NCBI GenBank assembly: GCA_000621425.1
Contig: KK211275.1
Span: 660,523-724,522 of the forward strand
Reading direction: 5' to 3'
Length of the DNA: 64,000 nucleotides
Origin: Lachnospiraceae bacterium AB2028
GTDB lineage: Bacteria > Bacillota > Clostridia > Lachnospirales > Lachnospiraceae
Shown here in pieces: positions 15,904 to 27,088 of this stretch. The translations under genes were made by a program, and so were the position numbers. Each line of letters begins with the position of its first letter. Positions within the stretch are counted from its first letter, which is position 1. The notes beneath the pieces are model-generated. The model did no database searches. It had not been told where the DNA came from and saw nothing but the letters and a program-made list of their open reading frames with translations.

Positions 15904-16224
15904 ATGAAAAAACAGAATGTAAATCCCAAAACTGAAAATACAAACGACGATGAAGATATGTTCGTTGATATTGAGCTTGATGACGGCACCGTCACCTGCA
16001 AGATAATCACTATATTTGAATGTGACAAGAAGGACTATATAGCCATCCTGCCTGTTGATGAGAATGAAAAGCCCATCAGCGAAGATGTCTGGATCTACGG
16101 TTATTCAGAAGACGCCGAAGGAAATCCTGACCTCCATTATATTGACGATGATGAAGAATACGACGCTGCAGCAGACGCATTCGACGAATACCTTGACGAG
16201 CAGATGTTCAACGGATTACAGTGA
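15904..16224 (+). CDS. DUF1292 domain-containing protein
   Basis: A 106-residue acidic protein of the DUF1292 family common in Firmicutes, with the typical beta-rich core (VDIELDDGTVTCKIITIFECDKKDYIAILPVDEN) and an acidic helical tail. No signal peptide or catalytic motif; function unknown. In other Firmicutes it often sits by ruvX (yrrK) and fur-like genes; here it is alone on the plus strand. AAAGG precedes the ATG. Its last 9 bases overlap the 3' end of the converging MATE gene. Confidence 0.85.
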   Translation: MKKQNVNPKTENTNDDEDMFVDIELDDGTVTCKIITIFECDKKDYIAILPVDENEKPISEDVWIYGYSEDAEGNPDLHYIDDDEEYDAAADAFDEYLDEQMFNGLQ

Positions 16225-17946
16225 CTTATCCGAAGTGATTTCAAACACATTTCGATTATAGCTTAACGTCAGGAAGTGTTTTCTTTTTGGGGAAATATGT
16301 TCCGCAAGATTTGAGATAACATATTTCCTCAAAGACCCTACCTCCATTTCATTATCGGTAAGATCGAAGATGACACCGTCATCTTTAATGATGAGGGTAA
16401 TATGCTCCCTCGGCACTAACGAGCATTCTGCCAATACTTTTTTCCCCGGATTATTATCATTTATCAGCATCAGGGTCTCTTCTACCAGCAGCATAACATT
16501 GTTAACGGTCTTTTCAGAATAACCTGCTTTTTTTAGATCTTCTCCAATAGCATCCCTGACAGACATTACGCTATCCTGCTCCACTTCAAGCTCATAAAAC
16601 ATAGTCTCTGCACCGGCATTTCTTTCCGAAATAAACAATGGATAAGCATCCTTGCCATATCGAAGTCTTACATAAAGAACCGAGATCAGATAACCAAGGG
16701 GCTGGGCAAGCATCAGTCCTACAGCCATGCCATAGACACCACCGATACGTATACCAAGCGTAGCCAAAGGAAGCGATATCACTAAATCCCTGAGTGCGCA
16801 GACAAGTACCCCCAATGAAATCTTATCAATAAGAATGTAATAGGATGAGTCAAGAAAAATACGGCAGGTAAAGAACAGACTGAGAGAAATGATACGCAGT
16901 TCCCAGGTAGCCATATTCACTGTAGCCGGGTCCGTAATACCCATCGCACGGATGATCAATGGTGCAAATAAAAGTATTATTCCAGTAACAACGATACTCT
17001 CGATAGCTGCAGTTTTCTTGGCGTGGTTCCATATTTCACGGACGCCGTCATATGTTTCCTCCCCCAGATAAAGGCTTATAAGCGGAGCTATCGCTTCCCC
17101 TATACCATCAAATACCAGCTGTACTTCTTTTACCAGAATGATCACCGAAGACAATATCAGCATTTCCTGACCAAAACTTGCAACAACCAGAAGGTTGCAG
17201 CAAAACGTAAAAATTGCTAAGAAAAGATAAGTGCTTGAATCAACGATACTGTATTTAGCGATATTCCCGACTATCTTCGGTGAAAAATAAAGGTTGAGCC
17301 GAAGGGAATTACGTTTTTTTGTAAAATGAATGAACTGAACAACAAGTGCTATTACAAGGCTGATAAGAGAAGCCAGTCCCAAGCCTTCTGTCCCCATCAT
17401 TTTACAAAGCGGAACAGATATGATAATGTTGCCCAGACCTGAAATTATATTTGCTATGGCACTTATAGTCTCATCACCGTCAGAGAAGACCATCCCGGAT
17501 AAAAATACATTTACAGGGGTAAGAAGGACCACATATTTCATCCACTTTAAATAGGAATTTGCATACGAAAGGATCTGTTCATGGTCACATGTATACCGAA
17601 AATAAGAATCGCCAAAAACGATAAGCAAAAGAAAGAGGATCACGCCTATGACAATTGTGGTTAACAGCCCTGTTCCAAAAGTCCTATCCGCTTCTTCTTT
17701 CTGAAATGCACCTATCTGACGCGAATATATGATAGGAGCCCCCAGCGAAAAGACCAGTGCAAAAAAACTAGCCAGCGCATATACAGGCATCACAAGATTA
17801 ACGCCGTTTACTCCGTTCTCGCCAACTATAAGGCCCGCAATGATCGTATCCGACATAACAACAGCGGACACAAGAATAGCCGATATCGTACCGCCTGTAA
17901 GCATTGAATAGTATTTAGATGATATGAAAGTTCTTTTAGAAGTCAT
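16216..17946 (-). CDS. MATE-family exporter fused to a C-terminal RsbW-like ATPase domain
   Basis: Residues about 1-440 form a MATE/MatE-type 12-helix multidrug or metabolite antiporter (N-terminal YYSMLTGGTISAILVSAVVM..., repeated halves). Residues about 449-576 are soluble and look like a GHKL/HATPase domain of the anti-sigma (RsbW/SpoIIAB) type: EKTVNNVMLLVEETLMLIND as N-box and IIKDDGVIFDLTD as G1 box. This fusion makes it ~130 residues longer than ordinary MATE proteins. It starts 2 bases after the NRPS-like gene stop with only a weak ribosome binding site, so it is coupled to it and is the likely exporter of its product. Confidence 0.85.
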   Translation of the reverse strand: MTSKRTFISSKYYSMLTGGTISAILVSAVVMSDTIIAGLIVGENGVNGVNLVMPVYALASFFALVFSLGAPIIYSRQIGAFQKEEADRTFGTGLLTTIVIGVILFLLLIVFGDSYFRYTCDHEQILSYANSYLKWMKYVVLLTPVNVFLSGMVFSDGDETISAIANIISGLGNIIISVPLCKMMGTEGLGLASLISLVIALVVQFIHFTKKRNSLRLNLYFSPKIVGNIAKYSIVDSSTYLFLAIFTFCCNLLVVASFGQEMLILSSVIILVKEVQLVFDGIGEAIAPLISLYLGEETYDGVREIWNHAKKTAAIESIVVTGIILLFAPLIIRAMGITDPATVNMATWELRIISLSLFFTCRIFLDSSYYILIDKISLGVLVCALRDLVISLPLATLGIRIGGVYGMAVGLMLAQPLGYLISVLYVRLRYGKDAYPLFISERNAGAETMFYELEVEQDSVMSVRDAIGEDLKKAGYSEKTVNNVMLLVEETLMLINDNNPGKKVLAECSLVPREHITLIIKDDGVIFDLTDNEMEVGSLRKYVISNLAEHISPKRKHFLTLSYNRNVFEITSDKSL

Positions 17947-17948
17947 AA

Positions 17949-20864
17949 TTATCCCATTCCCTCACAGGCAGCTATTATCTCAGTACATTTTTGACAGATC
18001 AGCCCGGCAAATCTTTCCATGCTGACCTCATCATACATTGCTCCGTTATAATTCAGCATCACGCCATATTCATCATAGCTCTCCAGTATCTCAACATTGA
18101 GAGCATTGTTGCATGCATAAGAGCCTTTATCCATCATTTCTGCATTTGCTGTAATCGAATCCGGTTCATAACTGTACATATCGCCCTGATATAAAAAGCA
18201 AAGAAGGTCTTTCCCCTTGTAAGCCCCGGTCTCCATAAAGTACGAAGCATGCCCATGGACAATACCTTCTTCAATCTGCTCCCTGGTTTCCTTAATAAGC
18301 CATAGGACATCGGCATCTTTTTCTATATGGAAGGATGCAGGAATATCTTTAAAGAATACTCCGACCGAGTTATTTATACGGGAATCTGCACGTCCGTTCC
18401 ATGTCCATGATATGAGTACATCCTCTGTTTTATTATATTCTGCTATTGCCATAGCTGACGCAAGAAGATATAAGCCATTTTTACCCAGCCGGTATTTAAG
18501 GCTTACTCTTTCCGAAACATCCCTGTCGAAATCAAAAAGACAGGTCAGATATGCACTCTCATTCGCATTCGTTATATGATCGGGCTTTGGCAAAGAATCA
18601 AAATTCTCCCTGTCATAACGATTACGGAAGTATTCCATATCCTTCTGCCAAGATAAAGATACTTTTCTATCCGCTTCCTCATGAAGAAGCTCAAAGCAGT
18701 AGTCCTTCGGGATATCTTTTCCCTCCAGAGCAAGTCCTACATCTTCAAAAATCTTGCCAAGGGACCATCCATCGCAGATACCATGATACACATCAAAAAG
18801 AAGAACCTTTTCCGTTTCGCCTTCCAGTATCCTGCAGCGCATCATCGGACTTCCATCCAGGCGGAAAGGCTTTACAAAACTGCTGCAGATTTCTTCAAGT
18901 TCTTTATCAGTAACCTTCTCCACGGGAAAATCCGGATCAAATTCCGGCACATACCTCTGAATATATCCACCGTCTCCGGATATCTCGATAGTACTAAGCA
19001 GTGCAGGATGCTTACGGATAACCTCCTTTACAACATCAGCCAGCCTCTGAAGGTCCACATCTTCCCTCAGACTGAACCTTATCGGAAGATTAAGCATGGT
19101 AGAATCAGGATACTTATGCTCATACTCGATAAGATATTCCTGGCTCTTATTGATGGGTGCCTGTAAATGCAGGTCTTCATCGGATTTCCTGTTATTTGTT
19201 TTCGTATTCCTCTCCGCATAAAGGGCACAGATTTTCCTTACAGTCCTTCCTTCATAGATCATGGAAATATCAAGTCCCGGAAGAACATCCTCTGCAACGA
19301 TCTGCATGGCATAAATAGAGTCTCCCCCAAGTTCAAAGAAATCTTCATCAATACCTACTGTTCTTCCGGTCTTGAGAATCCTTTCTAACATTTCACTAAG
19401 GATTCTTTCGTTCCTGCTCTCCGGAACTGTTACAGGATGTGTATGTCCGTCTATTACCGGATCCGGAAGAGCCCTCTTGTCCACCTTTCCGTTTGCATTA
19501 AGCGGTATCTCATCAATATGCATATAGTACGACGGTATCATATAATATGGCAGATGTTTAAGCAGGATGCTCGTCGCACTTTCCGGTTCCGGCACACTGT
19601 CTCCGGTGTACCACGCACAAAGAGACGTCTTTTCCCCCTGCTTTATCTGTCTTACCACGCAGAAATCAAGGCCAAAAGCTTCCTTCATTGCTTTTTCCGT
19701 TTCAGAAGGATCGACCCTGTTACCATTGATCTTTATCATGTCATCGGCTCTTCCGAGAATGGTATAGCAGCCTTTTTCATCCCGCCTTGCAATATCATTT
19801 GTCCTAAAATACTTCTTTCCATTCAAAAAACATGTTGATCTTTCGTTTTCCTCGGGCAGATGATGATAACCCCGAGACCAGGGAAGGTAAACGACCAGCT
19901 CACCCTCATCCGATTCATTGCCTTTTTCATCGATCAGCCGAAAATCCGTATCCCCCACAGGATACCCGATAGGTGTCACGTCATATGAACGATCAAGAGT
20001 AAAAAGACAGGACGGGTAACCGAACTCACTTGCTCCATATACATTAACAATATCAAACCGGTCACTGAACACCCCGGATACGATTTCTCCACCTGTAAAA
20101 GCTGCCCTAAGTGACAGTTCCGGAATCGTATTTGCAAGATTCAGGAATGTAGGTGTCATAAAAGTGGTATCAATCTTATGCTCAACAAAATAACGGATAA
20201 GCTGTTTCAGGTCCCTGGTCATTTCCGGTGAAATCACATGTATAGTACTCTGGTCACTAAGAATTCCAACAGTAATGAGTACTCCACCAACGAAGGTCTC
20301 AGGAAGTACATGTGCAAACTGCACCGGAACAGGCTTTCCCTCTCTTCCATCAGGAAAAGCATAGGGGCCAACAAATCCGTTAACGCCTTCCATTATCAGA
20401 TCATAGATTCCATACTCGTTTGCAGCCCCCTTGGGTTCCCCTGTGCTGCCGGAAGTATAAATAAAGAAGGCCAGATCATGATCATCCGGATCTGCAAAAT
20501 CATAGGAAGGTTCCATCTGCATAGCCTCTTCCCATAAATGCATATCAAAAACCGCTTTACAGCCACAGTCCTTAGCCACATACTTGCCCCTGGAACTCCC
20601 CATCATATCCTCAAGGCCAACCCAGGCTGCACCTGCCATTATCACTCCAATCCGTGTAGCAATGTACTCTACCCCTTTAGTGAAATATATAGCAGCCACC
20701 GATTCTGTTCCGATGTCGTGTGCCTTCATCCAGTGGTTGACTCTTGCAGCCTGATCATACAGCTGTCTATACGTTGTACTTCTTGTTCCGTCCCTATCAA
20801 CTACAGCCACCCTGTCAGGGAACATTTCTACAGTCTTCTGAAACATTTTTAGAAAACGAATCAT
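17949..20864 (-). CDS. NRPS-like protein: adenylation, carrier and C-terminal condensation domains
   Basis: A 971-residue protein in the order A-PCP-C. Adenylation (about 1-470): A3 YTSGSTGEPKG (136-146), A5 VYGASEFG (275-282), A7 TND (355-357), A8 GRADDMIKINGNRVDPSE (371-388) and the A10 lysine in NGKVDKRALP. Carrier: LGGDS with phosphopantetheine serine S516. Condensation-like domain from about 570: the HHxxxDG motif reads YHGICDG (693-699), with Tyr for the first His but the second His and Asp intact. A single module ending in C could condense its amino acid with an amine or a partner carrier. Product unknown. AAGGAG precedes the ATG; a strong promoter lies upstream and a fused MATE exporter downstream. 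Confidence 0.88.
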   Translation of the reverse strand: MIRFLKMFQKTVEMFPDRVAVVDRDGTRSTTYRQLYDQAARVNHWMKAHDIGTESVAAIYFTKGVEYIATRIGVIMAGAAWVGLEDMMGSSRGKYVAKDCGCKAVFDMHLWEEAMQMEPSYDFADPDDHDLAFFIYTSGSTGEPKGAANEYGIYDLIMEGVNGFVGPYAFPDGREGKPVPVQFAHVLPETFVGGVLITVGILSDQSTIHVISPEMTRDLKQLIRYFVEHKIDTTFMTPTFLNLANTIPELSLRAAFTGGEIVSGVFSDRFDIVNVYGASEFGYPSCLFTLDRSYDVTPIGYPVGDTDFRLIDEKGNESDEGELVVYLPWSRGYHHLPEENERSTCFLNGKKYFRTNDIARRDEKGCYTILGRADDMIKINGNRVDPSETEKAMKEAFGLDFCVVRQIKQGEKTSLCAWYTGDSVPEPESATSILLKHLPYYMIPSYYMHIDEIPLNANGKVDKRALPDPVIDGHTHPVTVPESRNERILSEMLERILKTGRTVGIDEDFFELGGDSIYAMQIVAEDVLPGLDISMIYEGRTVRKICALYAERNTKTNNRKSDEDLHLQAPINKSQEYLIEYEHKYPDSTMLNLPIRFSLREDVDLQRLADVVKEVIRKHPALLSTIEISGDGGYIQRYVPEFDPDFPVEKVTDKELEEICSSFVKPFRLDGSPMMRCRILEGETEKVLLFDVYHGICDGWSLGKIFEDVGLALEGKDIPKDYCFELLHEEADRKVSLSWQKDMEYFRNRYDRENFDSLPKPDHITNANESAYLTCLFDFDRDVSERVSLKYRLGKNGLYLLASAMAIAEYNKTEDVLISWTWNGRADSRINNSVGVFFKDIPASFHIEKDADVLWLIKETREQIEEGIVHGHASYFMETGAYKGKDLLCFLYQGDMYSYEPDSITANAEMMDKGSYACNNALNVEILESYDEYGVMLNYNGAMYDEVSMERFAGLICQKCTEIIAACEGMG

Positions 20865-24790: not shown

Positions 24791-25639
24791 TTATGCATAA
24801 ACTCTCAGCTCATCAATGGACACCGCCACTTCATACATATCCGGAAATTCATTCCTTAGTCGTATCATCATCCGCCTGCAGTATGACATCCGTTCTCCCA
24901 GATTAAATTTCAGCAGGTTCTTGTGCCCCCAGAAATGAGTGAACAGTTTCTGTTCCCTGAGCGCATCCATATTATCACAAAAAGCATAAATATTCATCTG
25001 CTCTGCAACAGCACACATGGGAAGTATCCTTTGTTCCGCAAAAACCATATGACAGAGGTTATCACCGTCAGGAACACTCTTCCTCATAAATTCCATGGAA
25101 TGTTCCACATATCGATTCTTAAATTCATTGTCCTTTATGAAAAGCAGTGCCGTATTTGCCGGCCTGACCGTAAAATCCCATTCTTCAGGGAAGGCATATC
25201 CGTCCATCATCTTAAAACGATGGGGATCCGGATATGTTGATTCAGTGATATCTTCCCTGTGTATCACTGCTATATCGGTTGTATCCCTGTCGAAAGCATA
25301 ATCAAGATTTTTCCAGATAATAAGATCTGTATCGATCATAACGGACGGCATCTGTTCTCTCTTCAGTGCCTCAAGCTTTCCGGCAGCCCAGAACATCTGT
25401 GGTTCTATCCATTCCGGCACTGTGAGCAGTTCCGTCCCGCGCTTAAAACAATTATCAACTGACAGGCTTTCCAGATACTCCAGCGCCGTCTCATCCGCAT
25501 ACATCTTCGCAGGACCGTTGTACTTCTGATATGATGCTAAAGACAGAAGAAGCATCAGCAGTTCATAGTCCTGCATAACAACTGTCGTTGCTCCGGTGGT
25601 CTTCCCCGGTGCTGTCCATAGCGAATAAAATCCATTCAT
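24791..25639 (-). CDS. Glycosyltransferase-like protein (DUF6734-type)
   Basis: A 282-residue soluble protein with the look of a GT-A-fold glycosyltransferase: an N-terminal nucleotide-binding-like region (LWTAPGKTTGATTVVMQDYELLMLLLSLAS), the DxD-type motif MIDTDLIIWK (DTD at 103-105), a distant His/Asp-rich region (IAVIHREDITE), and FAEQRILPM as in capsule-type transferases. I believe it belongs to DUF6734; donor and acceptor are unknown. Its ATG overlaps the stop of the upstream repeat-protein gene as ATGA (25636-25639), which strongly suggests translational coupling and a joint function, for example modifying the Ser/Tyr-rich partner. Confidence 0.65.
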   Translation of the reverse strand: MNGFYSLWTAPGKTTGATTVVMQDYELLMLLLSLASYQKYNGPAKMYADETALEYLESLSVDNCFKRGTELLTVPEWIEPQMFWAAGKLEALKREQMPSVMIDTDLIIWKNLDYAFDRDTTDIAVIHREDITESTYPDPHRFKMMDGYAFPEEWDFTVRPANTALLFIKDNEFKNRYVEHSMEFMRKSVPDGDNLCHMVFAEQRILPMCAVAEQMNIYAFCDNMDALREQKLFTHFWGHKNLLKFNLGERMSYCRRMMIRLRNEFPDMYEVAVSIDELRVYA

Positions 25640-26991
25640 ATCAGATCCAGTCCGTATCCCATCTCAGCGATAAGCCTGAAAGATGGTTCAAGCTCTGCCT
25701 TCGGTATAAAACTCAATCGGCTCTTTGCCGGTCTATTGCCATTACAAAGTGCATAGTTCGAATCATTTATAAAGCGATTGCCCTGCTTATTATCATTACC
25801 ATAGAACTCTCCATTTCTTGCATCTTCAAATCCACGGTAACTTCCGCCAGCAAATCCTCTTGCAAAACTTCCCTGTACAAAGGAGCTATTATTATAACTT
25901 CCTGACAGCCAGTATTCCCTGCCGTAGCTGCCGCCGGAATAACTTCCCGCCATCCTGTACATCTGCGAGTGGTAGCTTCCACCCACAAAGCTTCCTGTCA
26001 GAGCTAAACCTGCAGACATTCCAAAGGATCCGAAGAGCCAGCTGTAACTGCCGATATTAAAGCTCCCTGCAAAGAAATTGCCGAAGCCCCAGAAATTATA
26101 GCTGCCGCCTACAAGACGATAGCTTCCCTGCAAGAACTGCTCCAGCCTGTACTGGCCGCCCATAAAGTTTCCTGTAAAGTAGCTTCCGGCTGACCACTTA
26201 TATGTGCTGTAACTTCCGAATGCATATTCCCATTCCCAGTTATGTGAAAAGGCATAGCTTCCAAATGAATAGGAACCTGCAGTATATGACCCCAGCATAA
26301 ATGCAGTGAAAGAATAGCTTCCGGCCGTAAAACTTCCATAGGAATAGCTTCCCTGCAAAAATCCGCTTATATTATAGCTGCCGGCAGAAAAACTGCCTGT
26401 ACTGTAGCTGCCAGTATTAAAAAATTTAGCAGTGTAGCTCCCCTGCGTGTAGCTTCCGTTAGCATCATTAACGGGACTGTATTTGCCAAAGCTAAACGTA
26501 GCAGGACTATAGCTTGCATTAAAGCTTACGCCCCTGCCATTGTATTCATCGTAGTCACAAGCATCTACAATGACATTTTTACGGCTAACAAAACATATAT
26601 TTTCAGGCTTCCTGATAGGACAGCCATTGTAGTACATATCATAAAGGGCACCGTCATTTTCAACAGCAAAAAGTATAGCCCTGAGCCTTCCTTTTGAAGC
26701 CTGAAGCTTCACATAAACAGGCAGGCCCTCCCCTTTGTTCAATAAGGAAACTGCCGTATCCTGGTCACAGTGAAGCATAAAGCCGCCATCAGGCAGACGC
26801 TGTGATAATTTCCTGTTGAATTCTCCGTTCCAGACTACATATACAGAAAAGGCCGACAGATCCGAACTATAATTTTCGTACATAAAGAAAGCATAGCCGG
26901 AATGAAATGCCGCAAGATGGTTTATTCGGTTGTCAAATGACTGTAGTGACTCGTCCTTACGACGGTCAAGCCAGCCAAAAACTTTTGACAT
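25636..26991 (-). CDS. Gly-Ser-aromatic pentapeptide-repeat protein with amidotransferase-like N-terminal domain
   Basis: A 451-residue protein with three parts. Residues 1-155 resemble a degenerate class-II amidotransferase (Asn-synthetase N-domain) layout: MSKVFGWL against the usual MCGIxGfl, VVWNGEFN against NGEIYN, CDQDTAVSLL against SDTEVLL, and KGRLRAILFAVEND. Ser2 replaces the nucleophilic Cys2. Residues about 159-387 are pentapeptide repeats, GS[Y/F]xx, with an aromatic at nearly every fifth position and about 25 GSY/GSF copies, predicting a right-handed quadrilateral beta-helix with an aromatic core. The last 64 residues are not repetitive. No signal peptide. The start at 26991 has only a purine-rich AAGAAAGAG as ribosome binding site. 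Promoter at 27060-27088. Confidence 0.7.
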   Translation of the reverse strand: MSKVFGWLDRRKDESLQSFDNRINHLAAFHSGYAFFMYENYSSDLSAFSVYVVWNGEFNRKLSQRLPDGGFMLHCDQDTAVSLLNKGEGLPVYVKLQASKGRLRAILFAVENDGALYDMYYNGCPIRKPENICFVSRKNVIVDACDYDEYNGRGVSFNASYSPATFSFGKYSPVNDANGSYTQGSYTAKFFNTGSYSTGSFSAGSYNISGFLQGSYSYGSFTAGSYSFTAFMLGSYTAGSYSFGSYAFSHNWEWEYAFGSYSTYKWSAGSYFTGNFMGGQYRLEQFLQGSYRLVGGSYNFWGFGNFFAGSFNIGSYSWLFGSFGMSAGLALTGSFVGGSYHSQMYRMAGSYSGGSYGREYWLSGSYNNSSFVQGSFARGFAGGSYRGFEDARNGEFYGNDNKQGNRFINDSNYALCNGNRPAKSRLSFIPKAELEPSFRLIAEMGYGLDLI

Positions 26992-27059: not shown

Positions 27060-27088
27060 ATTATAATGGTTTATTATGTGATTTACAA
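27060..27088 (-). promoter_or_regulatory. Promoter of the pentapeptide-repeat/glycosyltransferase-like pair
   Basis: On the minus strand TTGTAA (-35, 27083-27088), a 17-base spacer and consensus TATAAT (-10, 27060-27065), with a predicted leader of about 60 bases. It indicates that the pair is transcribed independently of dut. Confidence 0.6.

Follow-up and report, generated by a model that had tools for sequence, protein, structure and literature searches.

The window, a 64,000-nucleotide stretch of the Lachnospiraceae bacterium AB2028 genome, contains two adjoining genes that encode a repeat protein (P0001) and a putative glycosyltransferase (P0002); their features are listed in Table 1. 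The two frames have the four bases ATGA in common, as stated in an earlier first-pass annotation that had described the genes as coupled, and a four-base overlap was found in 14 of the 41 adjacent tag-enzyme gene pairs measured. The promoter named in the same annotation exists as a sequence, TTGTAA-17-TATAAT, but the region holds five such sites against a shuffle mean of 6.5, and the site does not stand out from chance. P0001 is the single match in its own genome and has no Pfam match, and NCBIfam holds no family for either protein. The C-terminal GYGLDLI of P0001, on which the first-pass annotation was silent, is referred to below as the tag.

The neighbours recognised by eye at the loci of the pair are housekeeping genes (dut, gltX and others). 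Elsewhere in the window, a 971-residue NRPS-like protein with AMP-binding, PP-binding and Condensation domains is encoded at 17949-20864 (-), and the gene after it, at 16216-17946 (-), encodes what appears by eye to be a MATE-like exporter.

Table 1. Position of the genes, domains and motifs of the two-gene locus in the window.
Feature	Position	Strand	Basis
Tagged repeat protein P0001, 451 residues	25636..26991	-	ORF and relatives
DUF6734-family predicted GT-A glycosyltransferase P0002, 282 residues	24791..25639	-	Pfam, AlphaFold2, Foldseek
N-domain of P0001, residues 1-137, alpha/beta, without known family	26581..26991	-	AlphaFold2, Foldseek, profile
GS[YF] low-complexity region of P0001, residues about 159-390, predicted disordered	25822..26517	-	AlphaFold2, repeat counts
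C-terminal tag GYGLDLI of P0001, residues 445-451	25639..25659	-	Kept with the partner enzyme across lineages
DTD (DxD) of P0002, residues 103-105	25325..25333	-	Both Asp invariant, 49/49 aligned
HFWGHK (H-x-x-G-x-K) of P0002, residues 235-240	24920..24937	-	H, G and K invariant, 49/49 aligned
ATGA stop/start overlap of both genes	25636..25639	-	Sequence
Promoter-like TTGTAA-17-TATAAT upstream of the pair	27060..27088	-	Not above shuffles

Architecture of the repeat protein

In the AlphaFold2 model of P0001 (28 relatives), residues 1-137 form a confident alpha/beta domain with pLDDT above 90 over most of its length. A Foldseek search with this model returned nothing below E 0.35 from the PDB and nothing below E 0.27 from viral models. 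The N-terminal part had been likened to a class-II amidotransferase or Ntn domain with Ser2 as nucleophile, and this likeness found no support: none of the 28 family members matches a Pfam family of that kind at E<=1, the N-domain profile finds no such PDB sequence at E<=5, and Foldseek shows none among the best 50 of 298 rows. Most relatives have Ser, Ala or Gly at residue 2 and one has Lys, so that this position does not hold a conserved nucleophile. The N-domain profile A1 gave no match outside its own genus among the 392 order genomes drawn. In a set of 20 sequences, the profile matched a locus of the distant genome G801 (L096, i-Evalue 1e-8), which encodes a 350-residue protein (L096:9188-10240) with a g1-type N-domain, no repeats recognisable by eye and the end GYGLELIDAR. 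By eye, this gene sits upstream of an apparently cut DUF6734 gene that adjoins an IS30-like transposase.

The aromatic repeats reported earlier are present, with 19 GSY and 6 GSF copies matching the stated figure of about 25. In the repeat region, [GS][ST][YF] occurs 27 times, whereas 500 shuffles averaged 4.2 occurrences and never exceeded 10. The claim of about 45 consecutive pentads stood in part: the register is real, 35 of 46 positions being aromatic in one register, but the unbroken run was overstated, as the longest +5 chain of aromatic residues has 14 members (residues 181-246; maximum 9 in 2000 shuffles). The proposed pentapeptide helix with an aromatic core found no support in the AlphaFold2 model, in which residues 138-451 are without strands and have a pLDDT of roughly 28-41, a value that poor alignment of repeat regions may lower.

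The repeats also vary between relatives. Aromatic residues recur most strongly with a period of 5 in 18 of the 28 members and with one of 10 or 15 in two; the period is 6 in L050, 7 in L055, L053 and L042 and 13-14 in L056 and L058, L039 and L059 being irregular. The Pfam family Pentapeptide_2 matches three of the 28 members, two of which are L051 and L052 by a scan of ten members, and does not match the window protein. The few Pfam matches among the 28 genus members fall in the repeats wherever their place was shown. The NigD_N match of L058 spans residues 214-229 only, inside the repeats, and is probably spurious; LbR_Ice_bind matches two members, and the one match with a place shown is likewise inside the repeats. 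In another genome, G043, a weak match to the repeat protein (E 2.9e-4; L065) covers the repeat part only. Across the aligned sequences, the repeat region is labile within the genus and the tag end is not. The first-pass model as a whole, a self-processing amidotransferase-like domain joined to an aromatic pentapeptide helix, can draw on the pentad register of the window protein and on the three Pentapeptide_2 matches. Against these stand the absence of an amidotransferase match by Pfam, PDB-sequence profile and Foldseek, the unconserved residue 2, a model in which the helix is not predicted and repeat periods that differ in some relatives, and we give it next to no chance.

The partner enzyme belongs to DUF6734

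P0002 matches the Pfam family DUF6734 (PF20508) with an E-value of 1.9e-9 and 37.8 bits against a curated cut-off of 27, and its AlphaFold2 model has a pLDDT of 92.1 and a pTM of 0.90. No PDB match was found at the sequence level. Foldseek returned 159 matches at E<=0.001, the best being UGGT catalytic domains (E 4e-7), followed by GT8 enzymes, glycogenin and LARGE1, mixed with the sugar nucleotidyltransferases RffH, RmlA and GDP-mannose pyrophosphorylase. UGGT and LARGE1 extend glycans carried by proteins. Because the TM-scores of P0002 to known enzymes are modest (about 0.35-0.50) and nucleotidyltransferases are in the Foldseek list, another sugar-nucleotide reaction is possible.

The DxD motif, H127, E129, EQR and H235-G238-K240 are invariant in all 49 aligned enzymes, which comprise 25 of the 33 from the genus and 24 of the 25 from outside it. 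We take the H-x-x-G-x-K motif to resemble the HxxGxxKPW motif of GT8 enzymes. The first-pass description of the second gene as encoding a DxD glycosyltransferase-like protein agrees with the predicted GT-A-type fold and with the invariance of the DxD among relatives. The pairing of P0002 with the repeat protein denotes by itself an association and not catalysis, and the enzyme fold could be there just to bind the tagged protein or to sense sugar nucleotides for it, without transfer. Catalytic-type residues kept in 49 of 49 sequences would be unusual for a pseudo-enzyme, and we consider this reading unlikely.

A mobile or defence origin was rejected on the searches made: viral contigs hold no relative of the N-domain or the enzyme, plasmids gave no match to one enzyme query and phages none to another, and PADLOC and PHROGs have no family for six proteins.

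The pair and its tag are conserved in the genus

The N-domain protein is present in 32 of 35 genus genomes and the enzyme in 33. The pair is in all 23 genomes of high quality (completeness of 90% or more, contamination of 5% or less); completeness is 72-81% in the three genomes that lack an N-domain match. It was expected that repeat-protein homologues would be co-located with a glycosyltransferase gene, and they adjoin the enzyme at all 28 genus loci where both are visible, a count that includes one locus (L035) whose enzyme is cut by the contig. GYG[LI]xLI forms the C-terminus of 27 of the 28 aligned genus proteins, two of which add a Trp after the tag; the exception is cut by a contig. The conserved elements are the final heptapeptide, GYG[LI]x[LI]I, and the partner enzyme.

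At the DNA level, the tag pattern matches 31 of the 35 genomes, in one copy each except in G010, and the copy nearest the enzyme lies at most 76 bases away in all 31. The tag stands beside the enzyme in each of the 33 enzyme-bearing genomes, 31 times by DNA pattern and twice by translation; G005 and G029 bear the enzyme and tag variants outside the DNA pattern. In G010, three tandem copies of the tag-coding end lie after the repeat gene and ahead of the start of the enzyme gene (L049:1889-2094); the repeat gene's 3' end was apparently duplicated in place.

At three genus loci (L054, L057 and L059), all in members that bear sporulation genes, the repeat gene comes straight after cotJB-cotJC, and in two of the three a gerA-like gene stands ahead of these; cotJC and gerA were in most loci assigned by clustering with scanned copies. 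This arrangement would suit a spore-coat or crust protein served by a spore-surface glycosyltransferase. However, SpoIVA is found in 7 and CotJB over the cut-off in 6 of the 35 genus genomes, and the window's genome (99.99% complete) has neither SpoIVA nor CotJB over the cut-off, while the pair is in every high-quality genome. A spore-coat role was rejected, as most genus genomes keep the pair without SpoIVA and CotJB, the window's included; such a reading is highly improbable in general, and in the window species the pair is unlikely to act in spores.

The tag accompanies the enzyme outside the genus

Outside the genus, the enzyme subfamily occurs in six further genomes among 295 of the order and in 19 further genomes among 381 of the class. 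The tag was found in 24 of these 25 enzyme-bearing genomes: in 19 the directly upstream gene ends in it, and in five the tagged gene is unlinked, which argues against mere hitch-hiking of neighbours. The whole-genome pattern found no tag in the remaining genome, G219. In the five genomes of genus g513 (L137, L138 and L140-L142), no tag lies near the enzyme; a methyltransferase gene (Methyltransf_3 in the one copy scanned) is upstream of it in all five, and each genome has one GS[YF]/GSG-type protein ending GYGI[DN]LI elsewhere by whole-genome pattern, one of them cut by a contig. A YceG-like gene is also ahead of the enzyme in L137. By the pattern used, there is one tagged protein per genome.

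The carriers of the tag differ widely. Five genomes of one genus encode 23-residue peptides such as MAFSSEVKEVPTSNVGGYGLELI, whose frames lie directly upstream of the enzyme and are preceded, by eye, by ribosome-binding-like sequences. Six genomes have proteins of 146-162 residues, made of a domain of about 108 residues and an (SG)n run, and five have proteins of 81-195 residues, in which a domain of about 75 residues is followed by a tail with TSY, SSF and GSF and, in some, EYEYEYE. The others include a 175-residue protein with TSYL repeats and proteins of 73 and 260 residues. Carriers from different lineages show no detectable similarity apart from the tag, which is the only sequence common to all of them, and ten carriers from outside the genus all score below the Pfam cut-offs. 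The tag lies at the extreme C-terminus in nearly all carriers, the additions being the Trp of some genus members and the DAR of G801. In a tree of the 49 enzymes, the genus, f172, the (SG)n group and the 23-residue-peptide group each fall on one side of a branch, as expected if the enzyme and the tag persisted and the remainder of the carrier was altered from lineage to lineage.

Two genomes with a DUF6734 protein were kept out of the 25. The enzyme of G801 is known from a Pfam match to part of the domain and not from the subfamily profile; the strict pattern misses its tag, which is followed by DAR. G733 has no tag by pattern, and its DUF6734 protein is encoded between an eCIS_core protein and baseplate-type (Baseplate_J) proteins (L095), which hints that a contractile injection locus may include a glycosyltransferase.

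For chance matches, the enzyme search and the pattern control were taken as one sample, being of equal size with identical enzyme-bearing genomes. A loose DNA pattern matches 29 of the 295 order genomes, seven of which carry the enzyme (E<=1e-10); one of the seven, G219, matches by a sequence that is no tag, with a stop inside (L151). The other matches are in 22 of the 288 enzyme-less genomes. None of these 22 combines [LI] at both position 4 and position 6 of the tag with D/N/E/G/H at position 5, none lies behind a Ser-rich tail, and several are chance matches in very short frames (for example L176, L178 and L185). As a backward control pattern matches 30 genomes (counted from the table), the 22 look like background. 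Extra pattern matches in the enzyme-bearing genomes G061 (L170), G1152 (L161) and G1168 (L168) were likewise discarded, their frames not being tagged proteins.

A possible tag-directed glycosylation pair

We infer that the two genes form a tag-directed protein O-glycosylation pair, an account whose probability, on sequence and models, we judge to be evenly balanced. The C-terminal GYG[LI]x[LI]I would dock the tagged protein onto the DUF6734-family GT-A enzyme, and the enzyme would take sugar from a nucleotide donor and attach it to hydroxyl residues in the flexible tail beside the tag, most likely Ser/Thr in the GSY, GSF, TSY, SSF or SG runs. The N-terminal part, which differs between lineages, would set what is modified. 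Binding of the tag by the enzyme is the simplest account, because the tag is at the extreme C-terminus in nearly all carriers, is common to all of them and accompanies the enzyme even when unlinked. The enzyme looks active from its residues and predicted fold, and would then presumably transfer sugar to the carrier. The earlier idea of a modified scaffold is reasonable in this respect, because a glycosyltransferase-type fold is predicted and the repeat homologues adjoin the enzyme. Against a tag-enzyme pair count the missing tag of G219, the residues after the tag in G801 and the chance GYG[LI]x[LI]I* matches in short frames of enzyme-less genomes.

As to the acceptor, Ser/Thr precede the tag in all 25 carriers listed (24 non-genus genomes and G801) and are the element common to otherwise different tails, whereas the (SG)n tails have one to three aromatic residues in the 40 before the tag. 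On the other hand, the tag tyrosine is the only hydroxyl residue constant in every carrier and the 23-residue peptides hold as few as 2-7 Ser/Thr, so that the acceptor may be this tyrosine; Ser-Gly runs can be plain linkers. With low confidence, we consider the Ser/Thr of the tail somewhat likelier acceptors than the tag tyrosine.

Were the tag tyrosine the acceptor, the tagged protein would be a glycogenin-like protein primer in a system of two proteins, with the Ser/Gly tail as a linker. The constancy of this tyrosine and the presence of glycogenin among the nearest folds of P0002 speak for such a primer, which would also be the most economical explanation of the 23-residue peptides, and in L139 the pair has a starch/glycogen-synthase gene (Glyco_transf_5, E 6e-71) some 4 kb away. 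This neighbour was noticed at L139 only, however, and on the other strand (L139:10630-12120); the likeness to glycogenin is at the level of the fold and common to UGGT, LARGE1 and others; and the aromatic-Ser repeats exceed the needs of a linker. We regard a protein primer as possible but rather doubtful. According to a review, glycogenin glucosylates its own Tyr195, and the sequenced genomes of glycogen-storing bacteria showed no glycogenin homologues (PMC11046441). The present pair resembles glycogenin, a GT8 enzyme, in the GT-A fold and in a possible Tyr acceptor, and differs in that the enzyme and the tag tyrosine are on separate chains. Tag-directed priming, in which one glycosyltransferase would place sugar on the tyrosine of a portable C-terminal heptapeptide carried by unrelated proteins and peptides, would amount to a two-part bacterial counterpart of glycogenin or to another protein-primed glycan; we think this improbable.

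Short carriers could also be precursors of a ribosomally made peptide product that is modified and then exported, long carriers being fusions. The 23-residue frames directly upstream of the enzyme in five genomes would fit such precursors, as would an ABC ATPase gene that directly follows the enzyme in 24 of the 29 genus loci with a visible next gene; at the one locus scanned (L034:3749-6908), the ATPase is followed by an ABC-2 permease with ABC_transp_aux and a weak IFT52_GIFT match. But the window clade is without the ABC pair at the locus, and among the few genes beside the short-peptide loci no exporter or protease was recognised by eye. A peptide product therefore seems quite improbable to us.

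Relation to known systems

Tag-directed glycosylation of the tail, the reading we prefer, has partial parallels. Serine-rich repeat adhesins are reported to have dedicated glycosyltransferases and accessory Sec systems (PMC7948813, PMC6973325). They have in common with P0001 a low-complexity Ser-rich region, which in their case is described there as glycosylated inside the cell. Unlike in these adhesins, the enzyme here is of another Pfam family, the carriers range down to 23 residues and recognition is apparently by a C-terminal heptapeptide; no signal peptide, accessory Sec genes or GtfA/B were recognised by eye in the neighbourhoods viewed.

Glycocins are glycosylated ribosomal peptides, with a small peptide gene beside a glycosyltransferase gene. 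The same adjacency is seen here, but the C-terminal signature is common to large proteins as well, no exporter was recognised by the short forms and the DUF6734 enzyme is presumably not of the glycocin type. In exosortase/PEP-CTERM style systems, one enzyme goes together with a short C-terminal tag that different proteins share. This holds for the present tag too, whereas the enzyme has a predicted glycosyltransferase-type fold and each genome has a single tagged protein by our pattern.

The literature searched does not name DUF6734, PF20508, GYGLDLI, GYGLELI, GYGINLI or GYGLNLI. Dedicated pairs of substrate and glycosyltransferase are already known; what is new is a portable C-terminal tag on unrelated proteins and peptides. 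The co-occurrence of one enzyme with a short peptide signature in several bacterial families of a class, on carriers that range from 23 to more than 450 residues, opens a new approach to protein glycosylation. Should the tag be enough to recruit the enzyme, glycosylation could be steered to any protein in a testable and possibly useful manner, and the pairing hints at what DUF6734, a Pfam family without assigned function, may do.
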